From contig CALZFC010000106.1 in the NCBI GenBank assembly GCA_945643635.1, positions 356,001 to 420,000 of the forward strand: DNA of 64,000 bases. The letters are read 5' to 3'. Positions within the stretch are counted from its first letter, which is position 1; every line of letters begins with the position of its first letter. The translations under genes and the position numbers were made by a program. Below the pieces are notes generated by a model. That model saw only the letters and a program-made list of their open reading frames with translations. It had not been told where the DNA came from and did not search any database. This stretch comes from Allodiplogaster sudhausi. Lineage: Eukaryota; Nematoda; Chromadorea; Rhabditida; Diplogasteridae. Shown here in pieces: positions 36,166 through 61,677 of the stretch.

Positions 36166-36985
36166 ATGATAGAACTGTCTCTCTCTCTCTCTTTCTCTCT
36201 CTCTATGTCGTCTCTCTCTCTCTCTTTCTTTCTAAGTGAACAGGCTACTTCAGGACTTGATCGTGTACTTGTAAGTGTCTGTGAGAACGCTCAACGTGAA
36301 TTATATACATCTCTCTGGAGCTCATTACAAAGCTCTTCCTTTGTACAATTCACTGGTATAGAGAGAGAGTCAACTTTCGGTTTCTTTGTAAGTGTTTTAA
36401 TGTGTTTTAATGGAAAGACACACATATGTTGACATCGTGCTAAAAACTTTAAATGGCTTGTGAATGCGTTCAATGGCCACGAAAAAATGCAGATTTTTGC
36501 AGAGAGACAGAGGAATACGAGAGGAAGACAGAGAAATAGAGAGAGAGTGGAAAAGTAAGTTGTAAGTGTATGTATTTAATGTATTTCATTTGTTTGGCTG
36601 TATGTTTGCAAGAGGTGCGAAGTGGTCGACGGAGGTGCGAAGTGAGAGTCGACGTCTGTTTTTCTCTGCCAACGCTATCTCGCCTTTTCGCGCCTGTGAC
36701 TTTTTTTCTCTAACCTCTCAAAAACGCACCTATAACGGGCTGTTTTCGTCGAGGGGCGGAGCTAAGCGACTGTTTCGTTGTCTAACCTCCGTGTTTTGCG
36801 AGCAGCCTCGGCGATCTCGCGTGTCGCAGGCTCGGCGAACTTTTTTTCTTTTCTCTGCTCGTCAAATCTCTCGACTCATACCGCACTCTCGTCGTTTCTG
36901 CAGCTCTCATGCCCGCTCTCCAATCTCTCTCCATGGCTTTTTTTCGGAGATACACTTCTGCTTGTGAACTATCTAGAGGAACTAG
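36166..36985 (-). repeat. T-block unit, inverted
   Basis: A full inverted T-block from CT tract (36,178-36,235) to end motif GAACTATCTAGAGG at about 36,966-36,979 and boundary AACTAGTTAACTAAGTTA. It resembles 32,330-33,140 without the doubled end motif. Confidence 0.75.
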
Positions 36986-37260
36986 TTAACTAAGTTACGC
37001 TATTTCCGGGAGTACCGCTATTTTAGGGAGCTAAAGAACAAAAAAAAGTTTTAGAGTTCAGGGTCTCAGCTAAGCTTAGGGAGTTAAAGAAGAGTTAAGG
37101 AGTTTTTAGAGTTCAGGGTCTCAGCTAAGCTTAGAGAGTTAAAGAAGAGTTGAGGAGTTTTTAGAGTTCAGGGTCTCAGCTAAGCTTATTGAGTTAAAGA
37201 AGATCTAATGAGTTTTTAGCTGGAGGGCAAGAAGAGAAATTAAAACATCAAAGGTTTGAA
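36986..37260 (-). repeat. 55-bp minisatellite, inverted, 3-4 copies
   Basis: Units of GGGTCTCAGCTAAGCTTAGG type follow the tail GAGTACCGCTATTTTAGGGA and a poly-A run. The last unit passes into GAAGATCTAATGAGTTTTTA, the array exit seen also at 57,290 and 63,958. Confidence 0.8.
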
Positions 37261-38165
37261 GAAGAGTTCAGAGCACGCCAAAGAGCTTACGAATACAGCA
37301 CAGCAGAAAGCATGCTCAGTATGAGAGTTTAAGTAATTCAATGCACTAATAAAGACTCCTAATTTTTCGCTCAACTGCACGTAGAGCTAAGAAGGCCATC
37401 TCAGCTCGACGTAACGCCGAGCCAAGAAGGCCATCTCAGTTCGACGGCACGCCGAGCCAAGACGGCCAACTCAGCTCCACTGAACGCAGAGCCAAGAAGT
37501 CAAAGGTTTGAAGAAGTGTTCAGAGCACGCCAAAGAGCTTACGAATACTGCACATCAGAAATCATGATAAGCATCAAAGGTTATAAGAAAAGTTCAAAGC
37601 ACGACAAAGAGGATACGAAAACAGCACATCAGAAAGCATGCTATAATATGGTCTGAACATCAGAAAGCATGATAAGCATCAAAGGTTATAAGAAAAGTTC
37701 AAAGCACGACAAACAGGATACGAATACAGCACATCAGAAAGCATGCTAAAATATGGTCTCCTAATTTTTCAGTTATTTCTAAGCTGTACATCATCTTTCT
37801 ACAATAAAAAGAGAACTATTAAAAAAGGCTCTTCCCGGCTCCACTGCACGTCGAGCTAAGAAGGTCATCTCAGCTCCACTGAACGCAGAGCCAAGAAGGC
37901 CATCTCAGCTCAGCGTAATGCAGAGCCAGGACGGCAGAATCAAGTTGAGAAGCAACCTCAAGCTTGGGAAATTAAACCGACTTTGGATGGCTATTTCGCG
38001 CAACCTACACTTGCCGAGTTTTCAAAGGGAGTTCATGATGCTGAGTGTGCGTACTTGGAATGCTGGCAAAGTGCCAAAAAATTATTATTTTAAGAGTTTT
38101 ACTGCTTTAAACGATACATAAAATTACAAAAAAAAATCAGAGAGTAAGAGTAGAGTGGGAGAGAC
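37261..38165 (-). repeat. Mosaic tail with 35-bp and ~115-bp tandem repeats, inverted
   Basis: Degenerate second 35-bp repeats at 37,378-37,495 and 37,840-37,915 surround two ~115-bp subunits (37,560-37,665 and 37,668-37,765). The last part is the CAAAGTGCCAAAAAATTATT box (38,066). It is the inverse of about 7,490-8,060. No gene is supported. Confidence 0.65.
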
Positions 38166-38990
38166 ATGATAGAACTCTCTCTCTCTCTCTCTCTTTCTCT
38201 CTCTAAGTCGTCTCTCTCTCTCTCTTTCTTTCAATGTGAACAGGCTTCTTCAGGACTTGATCGTTTACTTGTAAGTGTCTGGGAGAACGCTCAACGTGAA
38301 TTATATACATCTCTCTGTAGCTCATTACAAAGCTCTTTCTTTGTAAAATTCAGTGGTATAGAGAGAGAGTCAACTTTCGGTCTCTTTGTAAGTGCTTTAA
38401 TGTGTTTTAATCGGAAAAAAATGCGTAAACGCACACATGTTGGCATTGTGCCAAAAACTTTAAATGACTTGTGAATGCGTTAAATGGACACGAAAAAATT
38501 CAGATTTTTGCAGAGAGACAGAGGAATGCGAGAAGAAGACAGAGAAATAGAGAGAGAGTGGAAAGTAAGTTGTAAGTGTATATATTTAATGTTTTTCATG
38601 TGTTTGGCTGTATGTTTGCAAGAGGTGCGAAGTGGTCGTCGGAGGTGCGAAGTGAGAGTCGACGTCTGTTTTTCTCTGCCAACGCTATCTCGCCTTTTCG
38701 CGCCTGTGACTTTTTTTCTCTAACCTCTCAAAAACGCACCTATAACGGGCTGTTTTCGTCGAGGGGCGGAGCTAAGCGACTGTTTCGTTGTCTAACCTCC
38801 GCGTTTTGCGAGCTATTTCGTTCGTTTTGGGGCGGAGCTTAAGGAGTCTCTCCACTTTTGTCTGCATCTTTGGCCTCCACGAAAAGAGTGCTATTTCGCC
38901 TTTTCGTCTTACCTGACCCTCATCGTTATGAGGCTATTTCGATTTTTGGTGTTTCGTAGCACTGCTCTCCAATCTTTCTCCATGCAAAAA
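38166..38990 (-). repeat. Divergent T-block abutting the spliced gene
   Basis: It is the inverse of the divergent unit at 6,740-7,440: CT tract (38,175-38,235), the CGACTGTTTCGTTGTCTAAC segment, then GGGGCGGAGCTTAAGGAGTC. Unlike other units it has no GAACTATCTAGAGG end; homology fades after TCTCCAATCTTTCTCCATG at about 38,985. The spliced gene on the minus strand loses recognisable coding sequence within about 110 bp of this point. Confidence 0.65.
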
Positions 38991-39092
38991 GTTTCATCTT
39001 CTTTCTCCATGTTCTGACGTTCCACCTTCAAAATAATTAAAGATATACTAACCCCCACAGTACAATTTGCGTCTGAGAAAGAAGATTTATTA

Positions 39093-39985
39093 AAATACCT
39101 CCGTGAATGAATGCAGCCTAATACATCGTTCACGAAGACCTCGTCGATCAAGACCGTGATCCTGCACAATGTCTGCTATCTTCTTGAATTGCCGTCCTAG
39201 CATATTATACTTATGAAGCATTTTTGACAGACCAAGAAGAATCTGTAATGAAAAGAGATATTGTTAAAGTTTATATTAATAAAAAAGGTGTGCCAGAAAC
39301 CTCTCTGTCCAAATTCTGGTACAATGGATTGCGACCGCGATGGTGTGCTGCTTCTTCTGGGGTGTAGGCATAAACTTGGCCGAAAAGAGGAGGTCGCGTG
39401 TTACTGTCGAGGGGCGGGAGGACGTTACTTATCTGGTACTGAATACTGCCAGCCACCTTCATTATCTAAAAATTAATTATTGCAAACAAAGTGTAAATGC
39501 ATTATAAATATATTTAAAAATATACCGGCTCTCCACTTGGCACTGGCACTCCTTGGTAAAGCATCGCTCCCAAGGCATTACCACTGTTGTACTTCACAAT
39601 GTCTTTCTTGAACGCCTTGGAGAGAGGATGATCACCAGTGAGGAGAGAGTGAAGGGGCTCGGGATTCTTTGGCAGCGGAAGGAGTCGCACCTTTAAAACG
39701 GAATAGGTAAATGAAAACAAACAATAAACTAAATACTGTTACCTTGCCATCACTGCAGCAATTCAAGGAATAGGAGATCGCAGCACAGTATTGGCATGTC
39801 CTCGGTTCGCCCAGGTAGTAAAGAGAAGGTATCTCGAAGCGAGGGTGAGCTGTATTGACAGTTCGCTCTCCGGACGCCGCACCAAGAGGACGAGAGGGAT
39901 TGTGTCGCTTTCGAAATTGGGCGGTTCGCATTTGTGCTCGTCTCTCAGCTTCCTTCTCTGGCGTCTGGCTGGCGGAGAGATTTGC
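39093..39985 (-). other. Helitron-like N-terminal region (exons 15-18)
   Basis: After an Arg-rich AERRAQMRTAQFRKRH stretch (695-710), the sequence shows the Helitron zinc-binding pattern CQYC (746-749) with CC at 758-759 and SDGKVRLLPLPKNPEPL (760-776). It continues with FKKDIVKYNSGNALGAM (790-806), then IMKVAGSIQYQISNVLPPL (819-837), PPLFGQVYAY (843-852) and LLGLSKMLHKYNMLGRQFK near the end. This order matches the N-terminal region of Helitron Rep-helicases known as Helitron_like_N. The stop falls before the HUH motif. It is recognised from memory of the family; a profile search would settle it. Confidence 0.75.
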
Positions 39986-42900
39986 CTGATAAGCTGCGTC
40001 CTTATCACGGCAGGAAGGAGATGCCCGATAATCTTGGTGAGCCTTTCTTCGCCTTTCTGAAACAATAGTAGTAATTAAAGAACTAAATAAATAAAACTAA
40101 ATAAATAACGATTACATATGAATTTCGATTGTACCGGAAGCAGATTGAAGAGAGCGAAGAGCGTTGTCCGCACTGGCAATAGCTGCATTAGCAATGATGT
40201 CGAAATCAGAAGTTTCATTAACACGAGAATCTAAATGAAATTAAGTTTCTCATGACATAAATGATAAATCAAAAGATGAAGCAAAGGCCAAAGGAATAGA
40301 AACCACGTTGAGATTGCATCCAATCGACTGCGCGAGTGGCAAAGATATCAAAATGTGCTGACAAGTCAGCAGCAGCAATCTCAAGACTTTCTTTTCCAAC
40401 ACAGTCTTTGAAAGAGTTGTGAATGGAGGAGGAAATGCTGCAGAGAGTGATTTCGCTTGGAGGTGATTCATCACGACGTGATTCTGATGTGAAGACAAGG
40501 CCAGCAGTTACTGCGGATTTGAACGCTATTGAAGCTGCTTCTCCAAGGTAATTCAGAGCCTAAGAAGAATCTCTTTTAATAGGAATGAATAAATGAAATA
40601 AAAAAGAAACATACAGTTGCTGTGCTATTGAGATGTTGGATAGCTGCAAGGACAGCTACATATGCCCGCAGCACAGTGTCCTGCTCTGAGAGCCACGCAG
40701 ACTCTGGAGACGTCGTTGGGCGAGTAACATAGATAATTCCTAAAAGTGTAAGAAATAAATAAAATGTATGTGCTTGGTATGAACTTTCTCACCTTTTCTC
40801 GCTTGATTAGAACGTCGTTGATGGGTCCATACCAGTTCAGGAACTAAATTAAAAGAGTTGTATATATATATATAACTATTTATTTATTTATTTATACAAA
40901 TATATATATATAATGTAAACTGACTCAGCCACTGTTTTTTGTTTCGAGGCTTCTCGGCGGTTTGGATAACGATGTGGTCACACTGCACGTTCTCAACTGG
41001 AGTGACAGTGCTCCAAATCTTGTAGTTCACGGGAGCTGCCAGCTTCTGTCGCCGTTGAGAAGCTGCGGAACCACTTCGTCGTCCTCGTCGACTTTCCGAG
41101 CTCAATTCACTTACTCCACTACCCTCGCTAACCATGCTCACATCGCTCGCAACGCTTCCGCTCCTTGAGCTCACACGTCGACGTTGCGGCATGTTCTCTG
41201 CAATCTGCTCCTTGAACTGCCGAAGAAGCTCGTGGATTACTGGAATGTGAAAGAAAAATCATTTATCGTAATTAGCAATCATGTAAACGAAGTGAAGACC
41301 TTGAGAAAGAGACGTTATTCTCTCAAGGGAAGGTTGGTCAGAAGGCACGTCATCAGCTATAAATAATAAAATAAGAAAAACAATTTAACAAAACGTAAAA
41401 ATAGATTTATGTTTACAATTTATACCACACCTGAGATTCTCTGAGTAGCAGAACCACTCGCAGTTGGTACGAATACTGAGGCGTCGATGGACTTTGGACG
41501 CTTAGCTTGCACGGGAGTACCAGCAGAAGGGAAGAGTCTTCTCTTGGATCTCATCGTTGGAGGAGCTTAATTGAAGTAATTTGAAAATTAAAGACTTTTC
41601 TGCCGAGAGATTGAATGAATAATTACCGAGAAAGGGCAATGAAGTGACTGCTTGAATCACGGGAGGGACGGCATTATCATCATCTTAAAAAAAAGAAATG
41701 CTAAATTTATCCCTGAATAATAATATAATAAAGAATATTAAATAAATATTTAATTTTGTACTTGAAAATAGTACCTTCCGAGCAATCGCCACCGCTCTCG
41801 GAGCCGATATCAGAGTCGACATCAGCAGAAGTTGTATCCGTTGGTGTACTGCGGAAGCTAAATAAAAAAGAATAAATAAGAGAAATACAAATGAAGTCAA
41901 GGGAACGTACATTCTGTTGAAAACCCGCCGGACGGCCCGGACACCATTGGATATGGCGTTGGAGTAGAGGAACTCTCTCGGAATGTCGATGTGAACATCG
42001 CAGTACTTCTTGCGAAGTGGTCTGGCATCTTCCTTCATCTTCAGGAGCATGCAGTCGTTCCTTCGCATGATGTTCTTCATGCACTCGTAGTCGTGCTGCG
42101 TGAAGGCGGCGAAGGTTATCACGTCAAACTTAAAGCAAGTATAATTTTTGTTTGAAATCTAGACTTGAATCAACAAGTACCTGGGAGTAGCTGTTGTGTT
42201 CGAAAGATAGCAGAATAGCTTGAAGAGCTATTCTCATTCCCATTTCTTTTGGAATCCCGTAGATTCCAATTCCAAGAAACGGGAATGCCTGGAAATGTGT
42301 ATGTATGCGAGATGAGATCATGGAAGAATCGTGATTTTAAATAAATTAAAAATAAATAAATAAATAAATATATATATATATATATAATCTACATATATAT
42401 ATTATACATGTTTATTTATAAATATATACTTCAGAGAAAAAATTTTCAATAAAAGAATCAATAAAAGAAGTTATGTAAGTGCCGTACTATCTTCCTCCAG
42501 CCCTTGCGCTTGGCTATCCTCATGGCGTTGAAGTACGCATGGATGAGCCTGGCGTGTTGCTCGCGCGTTATAGCAGGAGCGTTCCTGCGGCAGTCGGGTG
42601 CCACCGCGTGGATGATCCCTTCAATCATTGTATTGTAATAATACAAGAATATTGGCAATGATAATTAACACACCCTTCACTTTTCGAGAGAGAGCATAGG
42701 CGTCTGTAGAGACGGCATCTCCAGCTCGCAATTGGAGCGTGGAATAGCCACGACTCTTACAGATCTTCTCCTTCTTCTTCTGGAGTGCGTTCTTGAACGC
42801 AGCTTCAGTGATCGGGTTGTTCCCAATCGCAGCCTCCCAAATGGCGCGGTTCACGCCATCACCTGAGATTACATAGGTAGAAATAGAAAGACAAATATAG

Positions 42901-43087
42901 TACAAAAACACATAAAAGCCAAGTAAGTACCTTCACGGAGTTCGGCATTCGCAGCATTAACAATGACATCGTGGTCCACGACATCTTGAATCCGGCAGTC
43001 GATGACCTGTATCCTTACATGATGGTAGTTGCTGTGTATTTCGTTGGAAAACCGACCGACGGCGTTGATGAAGCCAGGCACTGACAT
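39093..43087 (-). CDS. Macrodomain-Helitron N-terminal fusion protein, spliced, 3'-truncated
   Basis: Eighteen exons read rightmost to leftmost: 42,931-43,087; 42,674-42,862; 42,488-42,618; 42,181-42,288; 41,911-42,128; 41,775-41,857; 41,627-41,683; 41,431-41,565; 41,300-41,356; 40,925-41,239; 40,793-40,843; 40,615-40,739; 40,307-40,559; 40,135-40,230; 39,743-40,056; 39,526-39,690; 39,301-39,465; 39,093-39,242. All joins are GT-AG, keep frame and give about 923 codons without a stop before 39,090-39,092. Residues ~25-212 are a macrodomain. Residues ~269-658 are a Ser/Arg- and acid-rich linker plus a region I do not recognise. Residues ~690 onward match the Helitron transposase N-terminal region. 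The expected HUH nuclease and helicase are missing, so it is either a truncated transposon gene or a shortened derivative. The ATG follows a CTTCAG acceptor-like sequence, so an upstream exon may exist. Confidence 0.7.
41950..43087 (-). other. Macrodomain-coding part (exons 1-5)
   Basis: Residue numbering is from the ATG at 43,087. Visible macrodomain marks are VIVNAAN (41-47), the loop GDGVNRAI (53-60), STDAYAL (104-110), IIHAVAPD (117-124), the phosphate loop AFPFLGIGIYGIP (160-172) and the final strand DVITFAAF (197-204). In known macrodomains the asparagine pair and the GxGIYGxP loop bind ADP-ribose. All of these are present, although the first loop has EGDG where many members have GGG. 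Binding ability is therefore plausible; hydrolase activity cannot be judged. The domain is split by four introns. Confidence 0.75.
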
Positions 43088-43574
43088 TCTGAAGAAAAGG
43101 AAAATGAAAGAAGTTATTTACGAAGGAATATCCAAACAGCATTTGATTGAGAATAAGTGAAGATGAGCGGTCACATTACTATGTGAAGATGAGAGGTCAC
43201 ATTAGAAAGTGGCAGAGAGAGAAAGAAATAAAATAAACGCGAACAATCAAGCTCTGGGTGGACAGAGAGAGAAGACAGAGACGAGATAGAGAAATTGAGA
43301 GAGAGAGAGAGACAGGATGTGAGAGAGAAAAAGACGCAGAAATGAAAGAAAGAGACCAGCATAAACATAGTAAATGTTTGCAATAAATGCAGTAATTGTG
43401 ATACAATTAGGATGTCAGCCATTTCTGCATATTATTGAAGTATATCTGCATATCCAAATCGGTTCTCATATGAAAATACACGAAAATGTGTATTCCAGTT
43501 CATATTGATAATGTAAATATTATTAATATGGAACACTGTAATTAAAAACACATTTTAAAAAGTCCTTGAAAGGT
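43088..43574. other. Upstream region of the spliced gene, with GA-rich stretch
   Basis: About 490 bp between the first ATG and the degenerate repeats. 43,200-43,350 is GA-rich (complement CT-rich). No TATA box or other promoter element can be placed with confidence, although this side must contain the start of transcription if the gene is expressed. Short frames on the minus strand through the CT-rich part are low complexity. Confidence 0.4.
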
Positions 43575-44105
43575 ACAATCGATGCATCCCATGCATTTGA
43601 GTATGATTCAATAATGAGTTCTATGTATAGGGCTGTACTGTATGTATATTCTCAAAGGTACTGTGTGTTGGGCGATGCTGTGTGTAGCAAAAAAGATTTT
43701 AAAAATGAACTCATGGATGATATGTTATGAAATCCGCAAACAAATGCGTAATCAGCGCATTTCCAATGCATATTCTTAAAATTAATATTGTTAACAATAT
43801 GAATGCACAATAATGCACATAATGCAAATTGCGAAAAAAAAATTTTTTTCAAAAATAGAGAGAAGATATTACTAATGCATCCGATATAGTAGATGCTTTG
43901 GGCTGTACTGTATGTTCTCAAACTGTGTCTTAGACAAAAAAATATATTAACCATGCACAAAAAATATTATTATTACTCAAGTATTACATTGCGAAAACAT
44001 TGAAAAATGCGTCAATCACGCTTACCAATGCATCCGATATCTTAGATGCATTAATATATGGTACTGTATGTTCTCATAGGTACTGTGTTTTGAGCAATAC
44101 TTAAA
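43575..44105 (+). repeat. Three degenerate copies with GCATCCGATAT and GTACTGTATG
   Basis: A subunit with ATGCATCC, then TGGGCTGTACTGTATG and TTCTCAAAGGTACTGTGT-like sequence appears at 43,575-43,680, 43,870-43,935 and 44,025-44,105. Between copies are AT-rich stretches including a TTAATATTGTTAACAATAT inverted repeat near 43,780-43,800. The same three copies are at 58,437-58,970. Confidence 0.6.
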
Positions 44106-44540
44106 AAAACGATATAAAAGATGCAAGAACTAAAAAAAAACAATTGCAACTGAAGCATAACATTGCAAGAATGTTGGGAAATGCATGACTCAAGCTTTTT
44201 CAAAAGCAATTGTAAAACATTACAGCTCCAGCTTTTCAGCGAGACACAGAAAAGAAAACACAAATTAATGGCCCGTTCAAACCAATAACGGTGTCAACTG
44301 CAGTTGCACAACATTATCGGTCAATATATTATGGCTTTGAGTGGATATGGTAAGTAAACCGGAAGGTCGATTAATACCATTTTCAGTAAACCGACATATA
44401 CCACACTAATCGACAGTACAAACATATATCGACATTAGCGGCACGGACTATGCTGCGAATGTAAAATCAGGTAAAATTGCGAGAAGTAAGAAGAAAACAA
44501 CAAAAGCAGTAAGAAGTAGAAAAGTAGCGAAACTGTACAT
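44106..44540. other. Single-copy spacer within the duplication
   Basis: No gene or tandem repeat is seen. It contains a tract with ACATTATCGGTCAATATATT and AAACCGGAAGGTCGATTAAT whose two CGGTC/GACCG-like parts could pair weakly. It matches 58,970-59,404 only. Confidence 0.35.
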
Positions 44541-45010
44541 AGAGAGAGAGACAGCCAGAGAGCGCGAAGGAAGTATAGAGCGAGAGAAATAGAGAAAAAA
44601 AGGAGTGAGAGACAAAGACCGAATAGAAGAAGTAGAAAAGGTGCGAAACTGTACATAGAGAGAGAGACAGCCAGAGAGCGCGAAAGAAGCATGCAGCGAG
44701 AGAAAAAGAGAAGAATGAAAAGAACAAACATTTACATACAAATGATGTAAAAATACAAAAGTAACTATCTCCAGTTGGAGAGACACAAACAGAGAGCGCG
44801 AAGGAAGTATAGAGCAAGAGAAATAGAGAAGAATGAAAAGAACGAACCTTTACATACAAATGATGTAAAAATACAAAAGTAAATATCTCCAGCTGGAGAG
44901 ACACAACCAGAGAGCGCGAAGGAAGCATAGGGCGAGAGAAATAAAGAAGAATGAAAAGAACGAACCATTACATACAAATGATGTAAAAATACAAAAGTAA
45001 ATATCTCCAA
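44541..45010. repeat. ~118-bp tandem array, 4 copies plus remnant
   Basis: AGAGAGCGCG anchors start at 44,558, 44,673, 44,791 and 44,909, spacing 115, 118 and 118. The last three units contain TACATACAAATGATGTAAAA and a TCTCCAG.TGGAGAGACACA hairpin. The array recurs at 59,405-59,874. In the 19.65-kb and 29.28-kb core copies it is cut to about one unit and joined to a CT tract. Confidence 0.8.
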
Positions 45011-47115
45011 TTGATGTAAAAATAAAAAAAGTAAATGTCTCCAGTTCTACAAAAAAAGGAAAGCACAATAAAGAGTAAATATGACGCGGAACAAAGCGGG
45101 AAGCAGAAAGGCAAAGAAAGAGAGATAGACAACATTAATAACAAAACGTGGAGCGTAATGAAATATAGTGAACAAGAAATCGGAAAAATTCAAAGAATAA
45201 ATTATTGCCGCTTCTCGTATGGCGACTGCATTATGATAGGAATTGAAGGAAGAATGACCAACAGGAGTATTTCTTTTCTCTGTTTCTTTCATCCATCTCG
45301 TATTATCGTAATATTTTTTAGTGCAGGAAGAAGCGGTATGACATGCCTGGGTCACTCTATCATGGCGGCCTGATTCTTATATTCTTTTCTCTTCTTGTCT
45401 GGTCTCTCTTACTTATTCGTATTATATTGTGATCTCTGCGGATTAGGCTGCGGAACAGGACACCACTTGAGCGGTGCAGGAAAAGCGATATGGCACACCT
45501 GGGTCACCAAATAAAGGCGGTCTTTTTTTCTTTTTACTATTCTCTGCTTGTCTCGTCTCTCTTGCATATTCGTACTATCTTGTAGTGGTGAAGAAAGAAG
45601 CGATGTGGCATTCTTGTGGTCGCAGCGGTTTATACTGAGCAACAGGACATCACGGTACAGGGTCAACACACGCAGTAAACTTTAGTAACTATTAAGCAAT
45701 AAAAATATATACATAGCGAATTATTTTACAGTACCGGTCAAAATTCTATAAACTTTTGGTTTTTTGTGCATAATTTCTTTCAAAGTTAGTGAAAGTTGAT
45801 GAAATTTCCAGGGTTGCTTCTTTATGCTGTCAGATTATTAGTTCCAAAATATTGATTTCATAGATCGACTACAAGGCGAGAAAAAAATCAATAAGTCAAT
45901 ATCACCCGGGTGCACATTTAGGCGTAATAAACAAAATGGGTTGTTTCTTTGATGATCGGGTAGTTATTATTGGATACATGATTATTCTGTATTCTAGAGC
46001 ATCTCTGCGATAAAGTTTTGATCTAATCGCTATTTAGTCACATGTTTTTACATGTTGACTTTTTATTACCCGTGGCTGCATGTCTTGATGGCGCTTGGCA
46101 GCTTGCCAAGTTGCGAGAGAGACTCTTTAACGTTGTTCTTTAAGTACGTTAGATACATGAGAAGAACCGCCTTTCTCTGCTGCATCCAACACCATGGAGA
46201 ATGACGCCTCTATTAAAATCTACTTATTTTTGCGGTAATTTTGAGCTATAAACCATCTTTCTACCATAAAAACAAAACAAGCTAATGCCTTTCCCGGCTC
46301 AACTGAACGTAGAGCCAAGAAGGCCATCTCAGCTCGACGTCACAGCTCTCTCTTACTGTTTAACGCTAATTTAAAGACTTTTTATTACATATGGCTGCAT
46401 GTCTTGATAGCCCTTGGCAAACTAATTTGCTTTTTTTCTTTTTAATTATGGAACTTGGGAACTCTAAAAAGCAAGGAACACTTAAAATTTTATTTCCCGA
46501 ATTTTTTTGGAATTTTTTTTTTTAATTTTTAGACTTCAGAAGCTCCTTTAAAGCTCTCTGGACTTTGGAAACTATGCTCCTTTAAAGGCAAAATTTTCCT
46601 GATATTTATGGTGCTGTTGTCTATATTTTCTAATAAGCTAAGGTTCTAAGTGCTCATCTTATCTTGTGTTCTTAGTGCTTGCGGTCGTTTTGAGCTATAA
46701 ACCATCTTTATACCATAAAAACAAAGCAAACTAATGCCTTTCCAGGCTCAACTGAACGTAGAGCTAAGAAGGCCGTCTCAGCTCGACTTCACGTCAAGCC
46801 AAGAAGGACCTCCCAGCTCCACAGCACGCCAATCCAAGAAGGCACTCTCAGCTCCACTGCACGTGGAACCAAATGGCCCTATCGGTTCAGCGATGCACTG
46901 AGCCGGGAAAGCAGTCAGTTTGAGGACGTACCTCAAACCTGGGTGACTAAACCGACTTTGGACAGGATGCGCTGGATGCCTATGAGCTGGCGCAACCTAT
47001 GTTGGCCGAGTTTTTCTTAACATGTGAGGCCGGCAGACAGCGGGGCATATTTTATTTCTCAGACATCGAGTGTGGAAACCTCTTAAAAAAGTTTAATCGT
47101 TCAAACTTACTTTAT
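45011..47115 (-). repeat. Core segment and flank, inverted
   Basis: It is the reverse complement of 17,460-19,560 with few changes. It contains the ~130-bp degenerate tandem copies, the AAGCT-type palindrome (46,095-46,109 in reverse), poly-A/T, one 35-bp repeat at 46,300 and a degenerate 35-bp array at 46,740-46,900. Open frames on both strands are the same as in the forward copies and are not considered coding. Confidence 0.8.
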
Positions 47116-49270
47116 ACTTGACGGTTTTTCGACCAAAATTTTTTTCTCAGCGGGGCCAATTTTTTTTGTTCTCAGACCTCGGATGAGGAAACTTCTTTTA
47201 AATGTCTAATCGTTCAGACTTACTTTTATACAACATTACATAGCTAAAAAAACCGCCTTTCTCTGTAGAAAAATGTAGGATAGAGAGAGACACAGCTTCC
47301 GAGCTCTCTCTAAATGTTTTACGCTAAATTAAAGACTTGTGATTACATATGGCTGGCTCAACTGCACACAAAGAATAGAAGAGAATATCAGCTCGCAGTA
47401 ATAGTTTTAATATGCTTCCTTTATTTCAGATTGCTCTAAATGAGCCTGGCCGCAAAAACTGCAGTTCCAAACGGTCGCAAGGAACCGCAAAAGCTGCAGT
47501 TCCAAGCGTTCGCAAGAAACCGCCAAAGCAGCGGTTCCATGCGTTCGCAAGTAACGGCAAAAAATGAGCGGCCAGGCCCACAGGCGAACCAACCGTGTGG
47601 CGGTGCCTTGAATTCGCCGATTAAACCGATTTCTGGGATGCCCATGAACCGGCGCACACAATACTTGACGGCTTTTCGACCAAAATTTTTTTCTCAGCGG
47701 GGCCAATTTTTTTTTTGTTCTCAGACCTCGGATGAGGAAACTTCTTTTAAATGTCTAATCGTTCAGACTTACTTTTATACAACATTAAATAGCTAAAAAA
47801 ACCGCCTTTCTCTGTAGAAAAATGTAGGATAGAGAGAGACACAGCTTCCGAGCTCTCTCTAAATGTTTTACGCTAAATTAATGACTTGTGATTACATATG
47901 GCTGGCTCAACTGCACACAAAGATTAGAAGAGAATATCAGCTCGGAGTGATAGTTTTAATATGCTTACTTTATTTCAGATTGCTCTAAATGAGCCTGGCC
48001 GCAAAAACTGCAGTTCCACACGGTCGCAAGGAACCGCAAAAGCTGCAGTTCCAAGCTATCGCAAGAAACCGCCAAAGCAGCGGTTCCATGTGTTCGCAAG
48101 GAACATCAAAAAATGAGCGGCCAGGCTAACAGGCTAACCAACCGTGTGGCGGTGCCTTGAATTCGCCGATTAAACCGATTTCTGGGATGCCCATGAACCG
48201 GCGCACACTATACTTGACGGCTTTTCGACCAAAATTTTTTTCTCAGCGGGGCCAATTTTTTTTGTTCTCAGACCTCGGATGAGGAAACTTCTTTTTAAAT
48301 GTCTAATCGTTCAGACTTACTTTTATACAACATTACATAGCTAAAAAAACCGCCTTTCTCTGTAGAAAAATGTAGGATAGAGAGAGACACAGTTTCCGAG
48401 CTCTCTCTAAATGTTTTACGCTAAATTAAAGACTTGTGATTACATATGGCTGGCTCAACTGCACACAAAGATTTGAAGAGAATATCAGCTCGGAGTAATA
48501 GTTTTAATATGCTTACTTTATTTCAGATTGCTCTAAATGAGCCTGGCCGCAAAAACTGCAGTTCCACACGGTCGCAAGGAACCGCAAAAGCTGCAGTTCC
48601 AAGCTATCGCAAGAAACCGCCAAAGCAGCGGTTCCATGTGTTCGCAAGGAACATCAAAAAATGAGCGGCCAGGCTAACAGGCTAACCAACCGTGTGGCGG
48701 TGCCTTGAATTCGCCGATTAAACCGATTTCTGGGATGCCCATGAACCGGCGCACACTATACTTGACGGCTTTTCGACCAAAATTTTTTTCTCAGCGGGGC
48801 CAATTTTTTTTTGTTCTCAGACCTCGGATGAGGAAACTTCTTTTTAAATGTCTAATCGTTCAGACTTACTTTTATACAACATTACATAGCTAAAAAAACC
48901 GCCTTTCTCTGTAGAAAAATGTAGGATAGAGAGAGACACAGTTTCCGAGCTCTCTCTAAATGTTTTACGCTAAATTAAAGACTTGTGATTACATATGGCT
49001 GGCTCAACTGCACACAAAGATTTGAAGAGAATATCAGCTCGGAGTGATAGTTTTAATATGCTTCCTTTATTTCAGATTGCTCTAAATGAGCCTGGCCGCA
49101 AAAACTGCAGTTCCAAGCGTTCGCAAGAAACCGCCAAAGCAGCGGTTCCATGCGTTCGCAGGTAACGGCAAAAAATGAGCGGCCAGGCCCACAGGCGAAC
49201 CAACCGTGTGGCGGTGCCTTGAATTCGCCGAACGGAATGCAGAGCCAGGAAGACCCAAGAATGAGGAGCT
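47116..49270 (-). repeat. Tandem array of the ~549-bp unit, 4 copies, inverted
   Basis: The ATTTCAG anchor (before ATTGCTCTAAATGAGCC) occurs at 47,423, 47,972, 48,520 and 49,069, a period of 548-549 bp. Each unit has the GTTCTCAGACCTCGG box, CCGCCTTTCTCTGTAG, TTTATTTCAGATTGCTCTAA, two to three 35-bp hairpin subunits and CGCACAC(T/A)ATACTTGACGG. A TTTTTCGACC/GCTTTTCGACC variation marks subtypes. The last unit exits to the CAAAGTGCCAAAAAATTATT type. Confidence 0.85.
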
Positions 49271-50325
49271 ACCTCAAACTTGGGTAACTAAACCGGCGTT
49301 TGAAAGAAAGCGCTGGATGCCTATGAATTTGCGCAACCTACACTTGCCGAGTTTTCGAAGGGAGTTCATGATGCTGAGTGTGCGTACTTGGAATGCTGGC
49401 AAAGTGCCAAAAAATTATTATTTTAAGAGTTTTACTGCTTTAAAGGTTACATAAAATTACAAAAAAAATCAGAGAGTAAGAGTAGAGTGTGAGAGACATG
49501 ATAGAACTGCCTCTCTCTCTCTTTCTCTCTCTCTATGTCGTCTCTCTCTCTCTTTATTTCTAAGTGAACAGGCTACTTCAGGACTTGATCGTGTACTTGT
49601 AAGTGTCCGTGAGAACGCTCAACGTGAATTATATACATCTCTCTGTAGCTCATTACAAAGCTCTTCCTTTGTAAAATTCACTGGTATAGAGAGAGAGTCA
49701 ACTTTCGGTTTCTTTGTAAGTGTTTTAATGTGTTTTAATGGAAAGACACACATATGTTGACATCGTGCTAAAAACTTTAAATGGCTTGTGAATGCGTTCA
49801 ATGGCCACGAAAAAATGCAGATTTTTGCAGAGAGACAGAGGAATACGAGAGGAAGACAGAGAAATAGAGAGAGAGTGGAAAAGTAAGTTGTAAGTGTATG
49901 TATTTAATGTATTTCATTTGTTTGGCTGTATGTTTGCAAGAGGTGCGAAGTGGTCGACGGAGGTGCGAAGTGAGAGTCGACGTCTGTTTTTCTCTGCCAA
50001 CGCTATCTCGCCTTTTCGCGCCTGTGACTTTTTTTCTCTAACCTCTCAAAAACGCACCTATAACGGGCTGTTTTCGTCGAGGGGCGGAGCTAAGCGACTG
50101 TTTCGTTGTCTAACCTCCGTGTTTTGCGAGCAGCCTCGGTGATCTCGCGTGTCGCAGCCTCGGCGAACTTGTTTTTCTTTTCTCTGCTCGTCTGATCTCT
50201 CGACTCATACCGCACTCTCGTCGTTTCTGCAGCTCTCATGCCTGCTCTCCTCTATTTCTCCCATGCATTTTGGTCCTAGTGACACTTCTGCTTGTGAACT
50301 ATCTAGAGGAACTAGTTAACTAAGT
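49271..50325 (-). repeat. T-block unit, inverted
   Basis: It runs from AGGAGCTACCTCAAACTTGG through CAAAGTGCCAAAAAATTATT, CT tract (49,508-49,560) and T-block to the end GAACTATCTAGAGGAACTAG at about 50,296-50,315. It is close to the inverse of 15,864-16,900. After the boundary TTAACTAAGTT it is joined at about 50,326 to core-flank sequence instead of a minisatellite. Confidence 0.8.
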
Positions 50326-57901: not shown

Positions 57902-57950
57902 TTTCGTTGGAAAACCGACCGACGGCGTTGATGAAGCCAGGCACTGACAT
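57902..57950 (-). pseudogene. Exon 1 fragment of the macrodomain gene
   Basis: The 49 bp encode the first 16 residues, MSVPGFINAVGRFSNE, identical to the start of the gene at 43,087. Upstream sequence is also copied. The coding sequence ends abruptly at a CT tract, so no product related to the original can be made. Confidence 0.85.
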
Positions 57951-60900
57951 TCTGAAGAAAAGGAAAATGAAAGAAGTTATTTACGAAGGAATATCCAAAC
58001 AGCATTTGATTGAGAATAAGTGAAGATGAGCGGTCACATTACTATGTGAAGATGAGAGGTCACATTAGAAAGTGGCAGAGAGAGAAAGAAATAAAATAAA
58101 CGCGAACAATCAAGCTCTGGGTGGACAGAGAGAGAAGACAGAGACGAGATAGAGAAATTGAGAGAGAGAGAGAGACAGGATGTGAGAGAGAAAAAGACGC
58201 AGAAATGAAAGAAAGAGACCAGCATAAACATAGTAAATGTTTGCAATAAATGCAGTAATTGTGATACAATTAGGATGTCAGCCATTTCTGCATATTATTG
58301 AAGTATATCTGCATATCCAAATCGGTTCTCATATGAAAATACACGAAAATGTGTATTCCAGTTCATATTGATAATGTAAATATTATTAATATGGAACACT
58401 GTAATTAAAAACACATTTTAAAAAGTCCTTGAAAGGTACAATCGATGCATCCCATGCATTTGAGTATGATTCAATAATGAGTTCTATGTATAGGGCTGTA
58501 CTGTATGTATATTCTCAAAGGTACTGTGTGTTGGGCGATGCTGTGTGTAGCAAAAAAGATTTTAAAAATGAACTCATGGATGATATGTTATGAAATCCGC
58601 AAACAAATGCGTAATCAGCGCATTTCCAATGCATATTCTTAAAATTAATATTGTTAACAATATGAATGCACAATAATGCACATAATGCAAATTGCGAAAA
58701 AAAAATTTTTTTTCAAAAATAGAGAGAAGATATTACTAATGCATCCGATATAGTAGATGCTTTGGGCTGTACTGTATGTTCTCAAACTGTGTCTTAGACA
58801 AAAAAATATATTAACCATGCACAAAAAATATTATTATTACTCAAGTATTACATTGCGAAAACATTGAAAAATGCGTCAATCACGCTTACCAATGCATCCG
58901 ATATCTTAGATGCATTAATATATGGTACTGTATGTTCTCATAGGTACTGTGTTTTGAGCAATACTTAAAAAAACGATATAAAAGATGCAAGAACTAAAAA
59001 AAAACAATTGCAACTGAAGCATAACATTGCAAGAATGTTGGGAAATGCATGACTCAAGCTTTTTCAAAAGCAATTGTAAAACATTACAGCTCCAGCTTTT
59101 CAGCGAGACACAGAAAAGAAAACACAAATTAATGGCCCGTTCAAACCAATAACGGTGTCAACTGCAGTTGCACAACATTATCGGTCAATATATTATGGCT
59201 TTGAGTGGATATGGTAAGTAAACCGGAAGGTCGATTAATACCATTTTCAGTAAACCGACATATACCACACTAATCGACAGTACAAACATATATCGACATT
59301 AGCGGCACGGACTATGCTGCGAATGTAAAATCAGGTAAAATTGCGAGAAGTAAGAAGAAAACAACAAAAGCAGTAAGAAGTAGAAAAGTAGCGAAACTGT
59401 ACATAGAGAGAGAGACAGCCAGAGAGCGCGAAGGAAGTATAGAGCGAGAGAAATAGAGAAAAAAAGGAGTGAGAGACAAAGACCGAATAGAAGAAGTAGA
59501 AAAGGTGCGAAACTGTACATAGAGAGAGAGACAGCCAGAGAGCGCGAAAGAAGCATGCAGCGAGAGAAAAAGAGAAGAATGAAAAGAACAAACATTTACA
59601 TACAAATGATGTAAAAATACAAAAGTAACTATCTCCAGTTGGAGAGACACAAACAGAGAGCGCGAAGGAAGTATAGAGCAAGAGAAATAGAGAAGAATGA
59701 AAAGAACGAACCTTTACATACAAATGATGTAAAAATACAAAAGTAAATATCTCCAGCTGGAGAGACACAACCAGAGAGCGCGAAGGAAGCATAGGGCGAG
59801 AGAAATAAAGAAGAATGAAAAGAACGAACCATTACATACAAATGATGTAAAAATACAAAAGTAAATATCTCCAATTGATGTAAAAATAAAAAAAGTAAAT
59901 GTCTCCAGTTCTACAAAAAAAGGAAAGCACAATAAAGAGTAAATATGACGCGGAACAAAGCGGGAAGCAGAAAGGCAAAGAAAGAGAGATAGACAACATT
60001 AATAACAAAACGTGGAGCGTAATGAAATATAGTGAACAAGAAATCGGAAAAATTCAAAGAATAAATTATTGCCGCTTCTCGTATGGCGACTGCATTATGA
60101 TAGGAATTGAAGGAAGAATGACCAACAGGAGTATTTCTTTTCTCTGTTTCTTTCATCCATCTCGTATTATCGTAATATTTTTTAGTGCAGGAAGAAGCGG
60201 TATGACATGCCTGGGTCACTCTATCACGGCGGCCTGATTCTTATATTCTTTTCTCTTCTTGTCTGGTCTCTCTTACTTATTCGTATTATATTGTGATCTC
60301 TGCGGATTAGGCTGCGGAACAGGACACCACTTGAGCGGTGCAGGAAAAGCGATATGGCACACCTGGGTCACCAAATAAAGGCGGTCTTTTTTTCTTTTTA
60401 CTATTCTCTGCTTGTCTCGTCTCTCTTGCATATTCGTACTATCTTGTAGTGGTGAAGAAAGAAGCGATGTGGCATTCTTGTGGTCGCAGCGGTTTATACT
60501 GAGCAACAGGACATCACGGTACAGGGTCAACACACGCAGTAAACTTTAGTAACTATTAAGCAATAAAAATATATACATAGCGAATTATTTTACAGTACCG
60601 GTCAAAATTCTATAAACTTTTGGTTTTTGTGCATAATTTCTTTCAAAGTTAGTGAAAGTTGATGAAATTTCCAGGGTTGCTTCTTTATGCTGTCAGATTA
60701 TTAGTTCCAAAATATTGATTTCATAGATCGACTACAAGGCGAGAAAAAAATCAATAAGTCAATATCACCCGGGTGCACATTTAGGCGTAATAAACAAAAT
60801 GGGTTGTTTCTTTGATGATCGGGTAGTTATTATTGGATACATGATTTTTCTGTATTCTAGAGCATCTCTGCGATAAAGTTTTGATCTAATCGCTATTTAG

Positions 60901-61514
60901 TCACATGTTTTTACATGTTGACTTTTTATTACCCGTGGCTGCATGTCTTGATGGCGCTTGGCAGCTTGCCAAGTTGCGAGAGAGACTCTTTAACGTTGTT
61001 CTTTAAGTACGTTAGATACATGAGAAGAACCGCCTTTCTCTGCTGCATCCAACACCATGGAGAATGACGCCTCTATTAAAATCTACTTATTTTTGCGGTA
61101 ATTTTGAGCTATAAACCATCTTTCTACCATAAAAACAAAACAAGCTAATGCCTTTCCCGGCTCAACTGAACGTAGAGCCAAGAAGGCCATCTCAGCTCGA
61201 CGTCACAGCTCTCTCTTACTGTTTAACGCTAATTTAAAGACTTTTTATTACATATGGCTGCATGTCTTGATAGCCCTTGGCAAACTAATTTGCTTTTTTT
61301 CTTTTAATTATGGAACTTGGGAACTCTAAAAAGCAAGGAACACTTAAAATTTTATTTCCCGAATTTTTTTGGAATTTTTTTTTTAATTTTTAGACTTCAG
61401 AAGCTCCTTTAAAGCTCTCTGGACTTTGGAAACTATGCTCCTTTAAAGGCAAAATTTTCCTGATATTTATGGTGCTGTTGTCTAAATTTTCTAATAAGCT
61501 AAGGTTCTAAGTGC
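57902..61514. repeat. 3.6-kb direct duplication, copy 2
   Basis: Second copy of 43,039-46,652, with the same internal order: presumed promoter side 57,951-58,436, degenerate copies 58,437-58,970, spacer 58,971-59,404, ~118-bp array 59,405-59,874, inverted core 59,875-61,514. No gene follows on its left side, so any promoter here would drive repeats to the left. Confidence 0.9.
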
Positions 61515-61677
61515 TTTACAAAGTTCTATTGCAAAGTGCTCTTCTTATCATGTGTTCTAAGTGCTACTATAGAAATCTTCAAATTTTTCTGGTCATTTTG
61601 AGCAATCAACTATGTTTCTGCGATAAAAATGAAGCAAGATACAAAGATATTGCCTTTCCCGACACCACAACACGTTG
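61515..61677 (-). repeat. Core-flank exit segment
   Basis: GTGCTTTACAAAGTTCTATT to GACACCACAACACGTTGAGC; matches 50,548-50,710 and, in part, 35,035-35,175. It always precedes the second 35-bp repeat array in this orientation. Confidence 0.7.

Follow-up and report, generated by a model that had tools for sequence, protein, structure and literature searches.

Can a macrodomain and a Helitron transposase be parts of one protein? The question is raised by a spliced gene of the nematode Allodiplogaster sudhausi, which lies on the minus strand of a 64-kb stretch of DNA that we call the window (contig CALZFC010000106.1, here C106, positions 356001-420000; features are numbered from the first base of the window unless the contig is given). 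A sequence-only reading had proposed that seventeen canonical introns join a macrodomain to a Helitron N-terminal region in one gene. Our findings now show that the window gene is a copy of a Helitron transposase gene that has lost its 3' side and retains the 5' third. In the family to which it belongs, the single predicted gene of 48 exons encodes, with very high probability, a protein with the order macrodomain, linker, Helitron N-terminal domain, HUH/two-tyrosine nuclease, Pif1 helicase and USP-like cysteine protease. This confidence covers the predicted architecture, its co-linearity over copies, purifying selection and the conserved nuclease and helicase motifs only.

The window gene and its full-length relatives

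The window gene runs from 43087 to 39093 and comprises 18 exons (43087-42931, 42862-42674, 42618-42488, 42288-42181, 42128-41911, 41857-41775, 41683-41627, 41565-41431, 41356-41300, 41239-40925, 40843-40793, 40739-40615, 40559-40304, 40230-40135, 40056-39743, 39690-39526, 39465-39301 and 39242-39093), the last of which ends 6 nt earlier in the sister-copy predictions (window equivalent 39099). Its 17 GT-AG introns measure 52-199 nt at 12-32% G+C, and the exons form a single frame of 924 amino acids (aa), just as had been proposed. Exons 1-4 encode a Macro domain (PF01661; aa 43-180, 42226..42961, minus strand) with NAAN and GIGIYGIP loops, which scores 66.3 bits against a Pfam cut-off of 22 (E 3.1e-18) and whose closest PDB chains are of the MacroD type (best E 2e-12). 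A linker without any Pfam family above cut-off (aa 181-746, 39797..42225, minus strand) leads to the Helitron transposase N-terminal domain (aa 747-900, 39165..39796, minus strand), which carries CxxC...CC, YNSGN and PPLFGQVY blocks. In a PDB comparison, this domain is co-linear with residues 125-287 of Helraiser (7lcc; E 1.9e-7) across the CxxC/CC, YNS and FxQxY blocks, and by this match the window copy possesses the N-terminal zinc-finger-like region that is a feature of autonomous Helitrons. The earlier assignment to a Helitron N-terminal region is thereby upheld, though not as the Pfam domain of that name: Pfam finds no family in the Helitron piece, Helitron_like_N included, because that domain begins further downstream. 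The same stretch, aa 747-900, also aligns to a Coprinellus micaceus protein (P0002, 'Helitron helicase-like dom...'), with E 5.1e-4 for the whole window-gene product as query. A protein search with aa 640-924 yielded no match at E 1e-3, neither the macrodomain nor the Helitron region picked up a relative when viral contigs were scanned, and NCBIfam reported the macrodomain only far under its curated cut-offs and nothing for the protease. Upstream, a pyrimidine tract at 43088-43110 (minus strand) ends in CAG one base ahead of the ATG; this CAG is kept in three sister copies, and a 5' untranslated intron or a trans-splice acceptor is possible.

Where does this gene end? The sequence-only reading had given it a stop of its own at 39093, a view that has to be abandoned: the TAA sits just past the exon 18 donor (GAG followed by GTATTTTAA), i.e., in an intron, and the predicted frame of the sister copies runs past exon 18 into the nuclease region. 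With ...FLPYWSPLANAVFYPLLMPFG..., their exon 19 encodes Helitron-like sequence that precedes the nuclease, and a remnant of it (VERQNMEK..., 38997..39025, minus strand) marks the point at which the window copy breaks off. The 5' flank of the window copy (43088..45724, minus strand) is common to the full-length copy at C106:257109, in which the shared part runs from 254753 onward. Within 280 kb of C106 (bases 158001-438000, window included), three further copies lie on the plus strand, with ATG codons at 223381, 257109 and 285496 (hereafter C223, C257 and C285). Exons 1-17 have the same lengths, and all 17 introns begin with GT and finish with AG, in four of four copies, so the exon structure of the window gene is not due to chance. 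Over exons 1-18, the protein of C223 agrees with that of the window copy at 744/924 positions and those of the other two at 819/924 each; C257 and C285 are identical to one another over these exons and lie inside a 22.9-kb duplicated block (99.97%).

A single gene predictor, for which exons 1-18 of three copies served as training set, was started at the ATG, run separately on each copy and returned 48 exons and 2,888-2,893 aa for C223, C257 and C285; once two splice choices had been matched by hand, C257 and C285 came to 2,898 aa and C223 to 2,888 aa. Exon lengths agree between C223 and C257 for 45 of 48 exons, with exons 21, 22 and 46 differing. In C257, Pfam recognizes Macro (43-180, E 2.9e-17), Helitron_like_N (PF14214; 1250-1433, E 2.6e-43) and PIF1 (PF05970; 1977-2171, E 1.6e-50) together with a Pif1 2B domain, and the protein aligns to Helraiser across the N-terminal and nuclease regions (E 1.7e-64). 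The PHAHI and two-tyrosine KYIYKYIFK motifs of the sister copies align to those of Helraiser; the HUH nuclease with its two tyrosines is thus found in the sister copies, the window copy being truncated before it. Longer copies predicted to carry macrodomain, HUH nuclease and Pif1-like helicase in one frame, which the sequence-only reading had envisaged, therefore do occur, three of them on C106 (C223 with an apparent frameshift).

The domain list of that reading was nevertheless incomplete, as it lacked the C-terminal protease. A profile built from C257, C223 and P0001, a 517-aa protein from Logan/ENA, matches USP chains in the PDB (best E 6.5e-6), mainly over the end that bears the His box. 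Among the 30 PDB chains at E 1 or better, 26 are named ubiquitin (or ubiquitin-like, Ubl) carboxyl-terminal hydrolase, and the other four are two TssM and two uncharacterised chains. Both a Cys box (GTNCFIHASLQC) and a His box (HPSDSGHFVAF) are present in C223 and C257, and we regard the domain as a putative, USP-like protease. P0001 resembles the element in its macrodomain (38%, pairwise E 2e-22) and in a related protease (24%, pairwise E 6e-8), which it carries in reversed order, protease then macrodomain; alone against the PDB it matches macrodomain chains, and the best 60 of its 117 matches include no USP. Known here from its protein sequence, it possibly stems from another mobile element with the same domain pair.

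Purifying selection acts on every part of the predicted protein. By the Nei-Gojobori method, the ratio of nonsynonymous to synonymous change (dN/dS) between window copy and C223 is 0.20 overall, with 0.13 for the macrodomain, 0.27 for the linker and 0.17 for the Helitron region. Between C223 and C257, compared without aa 1142-1209, it is 0.13 for the macrodomain, 0.26 for the linker, 0.13 for the N-terminal domain, 0.11 for aa 906-1141, 0.08 for the nuclease, 0.10 for aa 1601-1964, 0.06 for the helicase, 0.28 for aa 2451-2560 and 0.26 for the protease. The linker segment aa 241-659 lies at 0.20-0.27 between non-identical copies.

Distribution across the genome

Is the fusion peculiar to this contig? 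The whole assembly (351.8 Mb, 382 contigs) was searched for the nuclease domain and for macrodomain exons: 120 Helitron_like_N matches clustered into 106 loci, and 131 of 140 macrodomain exon matches gave 36 loci; the nine left out (aa 150 to about 228) lie in a second frame, contain two stops and fall at loci that the others represent. Both searches score best candidates only, and the counts are therefore lower bounds. At least 26 of the 106 nuclease loci, on 19 contigs, are preceded, within 12 kb and on the same strand, by macrodomain exons, and these 26 hold the same order and strand at a spacing of 4.5-9.5 kb, which supports the proposal of one gene joining macrodomain to Helitron. Protease exons lie downstream in at least 24 of the 26 (80 of 80 protease matches used); the two loci without them are C155:4440, near the start of its contig, and C60:1301192. 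Five of five copies sampled on five other contigs hold the macrodomain exons at the predicted place. In the C60 and C104 copies these exons share no more than about 37-52% identity with C257, and so the macrodomain-Helitron fusion is old within this genome.

A search of the genome with the Macro profile itself returned only two matches, both above the Pfam cut-off, one of which looks like an ordinary MacroD gene; it revealed no intronless Helitron with a recognisable macrodomain, intron-split copies being such as escape this search. Two further patterns emerged. At C265:460423-469928, two macrodomain exon matches (aa 53-111 and 113-163) recur about every 3 kb at four places, which would fit a tandem multiplication of the 5' part of a copy. 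At C29:3689388, C117:514533 and C134:209915, Helitron_like_N lies in uninterrupted frames of 3,300-4,743 aa, compared with 1,496 aa for the Helraiser chain.

Element ends and affinities

The copies C257, C26 and C334 are alike well beyond the gene (99.0-99.9% on the 5' side, 96.7-98.5% on the 3' side). Set against C106, the C26 copy has a sharply defined left edge near position 3673566, at the point where many repeat units also begin. These units start with TCCTCTAGATAGTTC and finish with ACTTAGTTAACTAG, and their termini (TCCTCTAG... and ...TTAACTAG) read 5'-TC and CTAG-3', in agreement with the Helitron-type 5'-TC and 3'-CTRR ends. Allowing at most two mismatches, 26 head-to-tail junctions (ends TCCTCTAG... 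and ...TTAGTTAACTAG) occur in the 280 kb, eight of them in the window; they take the form TTAGTTAACTAG-T-TCCTCTAGATAG, in which the single T between CTAG and TCC makes the exact end base ambiguous. By its unit ends C257 spans 251666-270218, about 18.5 kb. Around the window copy, a unit would extend over 36982..50310 (minus strand), with TCCTCTAGATAG at 50310 and TTAGTTAACTAG ending at 36982; we infer that the two ends belong together, being the nearest on the same strand. A 130-bp direct repeat, 75% identical, flanks C223 (C106:222680-222809 and 236546-236674). Of the outer flanks, by which an insertion between A and T without target duplication would be recognised, one was reached, the left side of the C26 copy. 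Directly before the element there, left of C26:3673566, a sequence that we call L034 holds ATATGGCTCACTGAGCCATATTCCTCTAG, a hairpin and CTAG, and looks by its letters like the 3' end of another Helitron.

Much of the repeat content of the window is explained by such units, which are arranged head to tail and share Helitron ends. Stretches of at least 150 bases without a second copy are restricted to 38864-43038 and four shorter ones. A duplicate at 57902..61515 (minus strand), 99.8% identical to 43039-46654, covers the 5' flank and the first 49 nt of exon 1 and looks recent. Elsewhere in the window, Rfam and tRNA scans were empty over the full 64 kb, and positions 1-1605 hold a frame containing ...GWALRERKKSARLPPSSKEYVIAAFNEV..., presumably akin to a motif of marine-invertebrate proteins of unknown function.

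How does the element relate to known Helitrons? It shares with Helraiser and other Helitron1-type RepHel proteins the order of N-terminal CxxC/CC region, HUH nuclease with two tyrosines and Pif1 helicase. It differs from them in its macrodomain at the front, its USP-like protease at the rear, a unit of about 18.5 kb with long repeated flanks, the absence of a detected 3' hairpin, and its size (48 predicted exons and about 2,900 aa, against the 1,496 aa of the Helraiser chain). With the full protein as query, 45 proteins were found, all listed with PF14214 and PF05970 and none with PF01661 or UCH, and a macrodomain profile (window copy, C223, C257 and P0001) matched none of them (best E 0.67). 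This search covers already predicted proteins of about 1,600-5,070 aa, so that it would overlook relatives with many introns in genomes that lack annotation. Additional domains among the 45 include PF02338, PF02902, PF04843, PF08646/PF02721 and PF03372, which we take to be OTU, C48 peptidase, herpes tegument, RPA-like and endonuclease domains, respectively. A quick tree was made from 45 rows (43 of these proteins, with P0003 and P0046 dropped for span, plus C257 and C223). In it the element stands apart from 11 endonuclease-bearing rows with support 100, and under midpoint rooting it forms the first branch of the side without endonuclease. The mark of Helentrons is accordingly absent, Pfam finding no PF03372 in the C257 protein. 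Studies of Helentrons describe OTU, VTD (tegument-like) deubiquitinase and apurinic/apyrimidinic (AP) endonuclease domains (PMC9741609, PMC5148889); according to one report, VTD deubiquitinases of zebrafish Helitrons are active, and Helentron OTU domains were untested there (PMC9741609). The element thus resembles Helentrons in bearing a deubiquitinase-type domain on a Helitron transposase, but its protease is USP-like, the endonuclease is absent and a macrodomain is present. Passages on the domain make-up and captured genes of fungal Helitrons make no mention of a macrodomain (PMC5148889, PMC4289320). The 5.39 million open papers to which the search was confined hold no co-mention of Helitron with macrodomain or macro domain, and co-mentions of Helitron with ADP-ribose look incidental.

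Alternatives and a possible counter-defence role

Several observations weigh against the reading of these loci as Helitrons with an integral macrodomain and protease. Exons 19-48 are based on gene prediction and domain matches, C223 has its apparent frameshift in exon 21, and UCH in C257 (2585-2873) reaches 13.6 bits against a cut-off of 23.9, i.e., it stays below threshold. A scan for stems of at least 7 bp lying 3-15 nt ahead of CTRR gave none behind C257 or C223, and at the unit end of C257 it gave not even a 5-bp stem; the same scan succeeds on L034 as a control. The Helitron assignment rests on protein-level features, and the ends make the element at most a variant. Ten of the 36 macrodomain loci, the window copy among them, are without a nuclease exon. 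Helitrons that start after the macrodomain had been named beforehand as evidence against a single gene, and 80 of the 106 nuclease loci indeed have no macrodomain exon upstream. Of the 120 Helitron_like_N matches, however, 54 start no later than profile position 20 and reach 191 in one frame; they therefore lack the intron that splits the nuclease domain in the macrodomain-Helitron family, and the 26 loci include not one of them. Judged from such frames, many nuclease loci without macrodomain exons are other Helitron families. Two loci remain candidates for the opposing view: C17, with nuclease and protease exons, no macrodomain exon within the 5.3 kb read and another Helitron nested there, and C287, with protease exons and no macrodomain match on a contig that stops about 2.3 kb upstream.

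What would a macrodomain and a protease do for a transposon? We envision that the element transposes in the rolling-circle manner of Helitrons and that nicked and single-stranded DNA at the transposition site would activate PARP enzymes. The tethered macrodomain could then bind ADP-ribose on, or strip it from, the transposase, chromatin or nearby repair proteins, and the protease would remove ubiquitin, with the outcome that host signalling would neither halt transposition nor destroy the transposase. We would give such a role of the two domains at the transposition site an even chance of being correct; a mobile element may in this way disarm two host signalling systems at once. The broader proposal, that some Helitrons carry a two-part counter-defence module of macrodomain and USP-like deubiquitinase against an ADP-ribosylation-based host response, we put forward tentatively and with somewhat more doubt than belief. 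To our knowledge, an ADP-ribosylation-based host response to a DNA transposon would itself be new. Some RNA viruses pair a macrodomain with a deubiquitinase, and the role proposed here is similar to that of these pairs, kinship not being claimed. According to two papers, macrodomains of several RNA viruses counter PARP-based responses (PMC7232374, PMC6521996).

Alternatively, the macrodomain might be carried along in an inactive form, as an ADP-ribose-blind scaffold or a DNA-binding derivative. Loop 1 reads GDGVN in the window copy and C257 and GAGVN in C223, compared with GGGVD in P0001 and in L001, the MacroD-like gene of this genome (of which only a short stretch matches the window gene, 39% over 54 aa). 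The Asp of GGGVD is catalytic in MacroD-type macrodomains; its replacement by Asn also counts against our proposal and, with the change of GGG to GDG or GAG, would suit a loss of activity. The fold, NAAN and the G-I-Y-G loops are otherwise shared with the MacroD type (MACROD1/2, 5l9k), the source of the best PDB matches, and NAAN, IIHAVAP and GIGIYG(I/V)P are kept even in the diverged C60 copy, with its identity of only about 38-50%. Together with the macrodomain dN/dS of 0.13, this makes an inactive passenger unlikely, albeit a possibility to be taken seriously. Because Asn occupies the usual position of Asp, the element macrodomain may bind rather than hydrolyse ADP-ribose, and binding alone would still bring the protein to PARP-marked breaks.

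A second alternative is that the fusion was domesticated, being retained and multiplied in tandem because it serves the host, as a gene family that is no longer mobile. The large duplicated array that holds the copies on C106, the identity of C257 and C285 over exons 1-18 and the low dN/dS would be expected of such a family. The copies are dispersed over 19 contigs in diverged subfamilies, however, those read retain the nuclease, both tyrosines and the helicase motifs, some are broken, and the unit ends are shared. Dispersal, kept motifs, broken copies and common ends therefore speak for transposon behaviour, and we hold domestication to be quite improbable. Least probable of all, and barely credible, is a host or captured macrodomain gene that merely precedes a Helitron transposase gene, with the joined frame a modelling artefact: about 560 aa of linker without known family do separate the two parts, and the frame is predicted from DNA, but four of four copies agree in frame and exon lengths throughout the linker, purifying selection acts on it (dN/dS 0.26), and 26 loci on 19 contigs keep order, strand and the 4.5-9.5 kb spacing.

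With the macrodomain seen as part of a Helitron transposase, a transposon macrodomain under selection makes it testable whether ADP-ribosylation restrains transposition. The USP-like protease, in turn, parallels the OTU and VTD domains of other Helitrons, which suggests that transposons have acquired such modules repeatedly.

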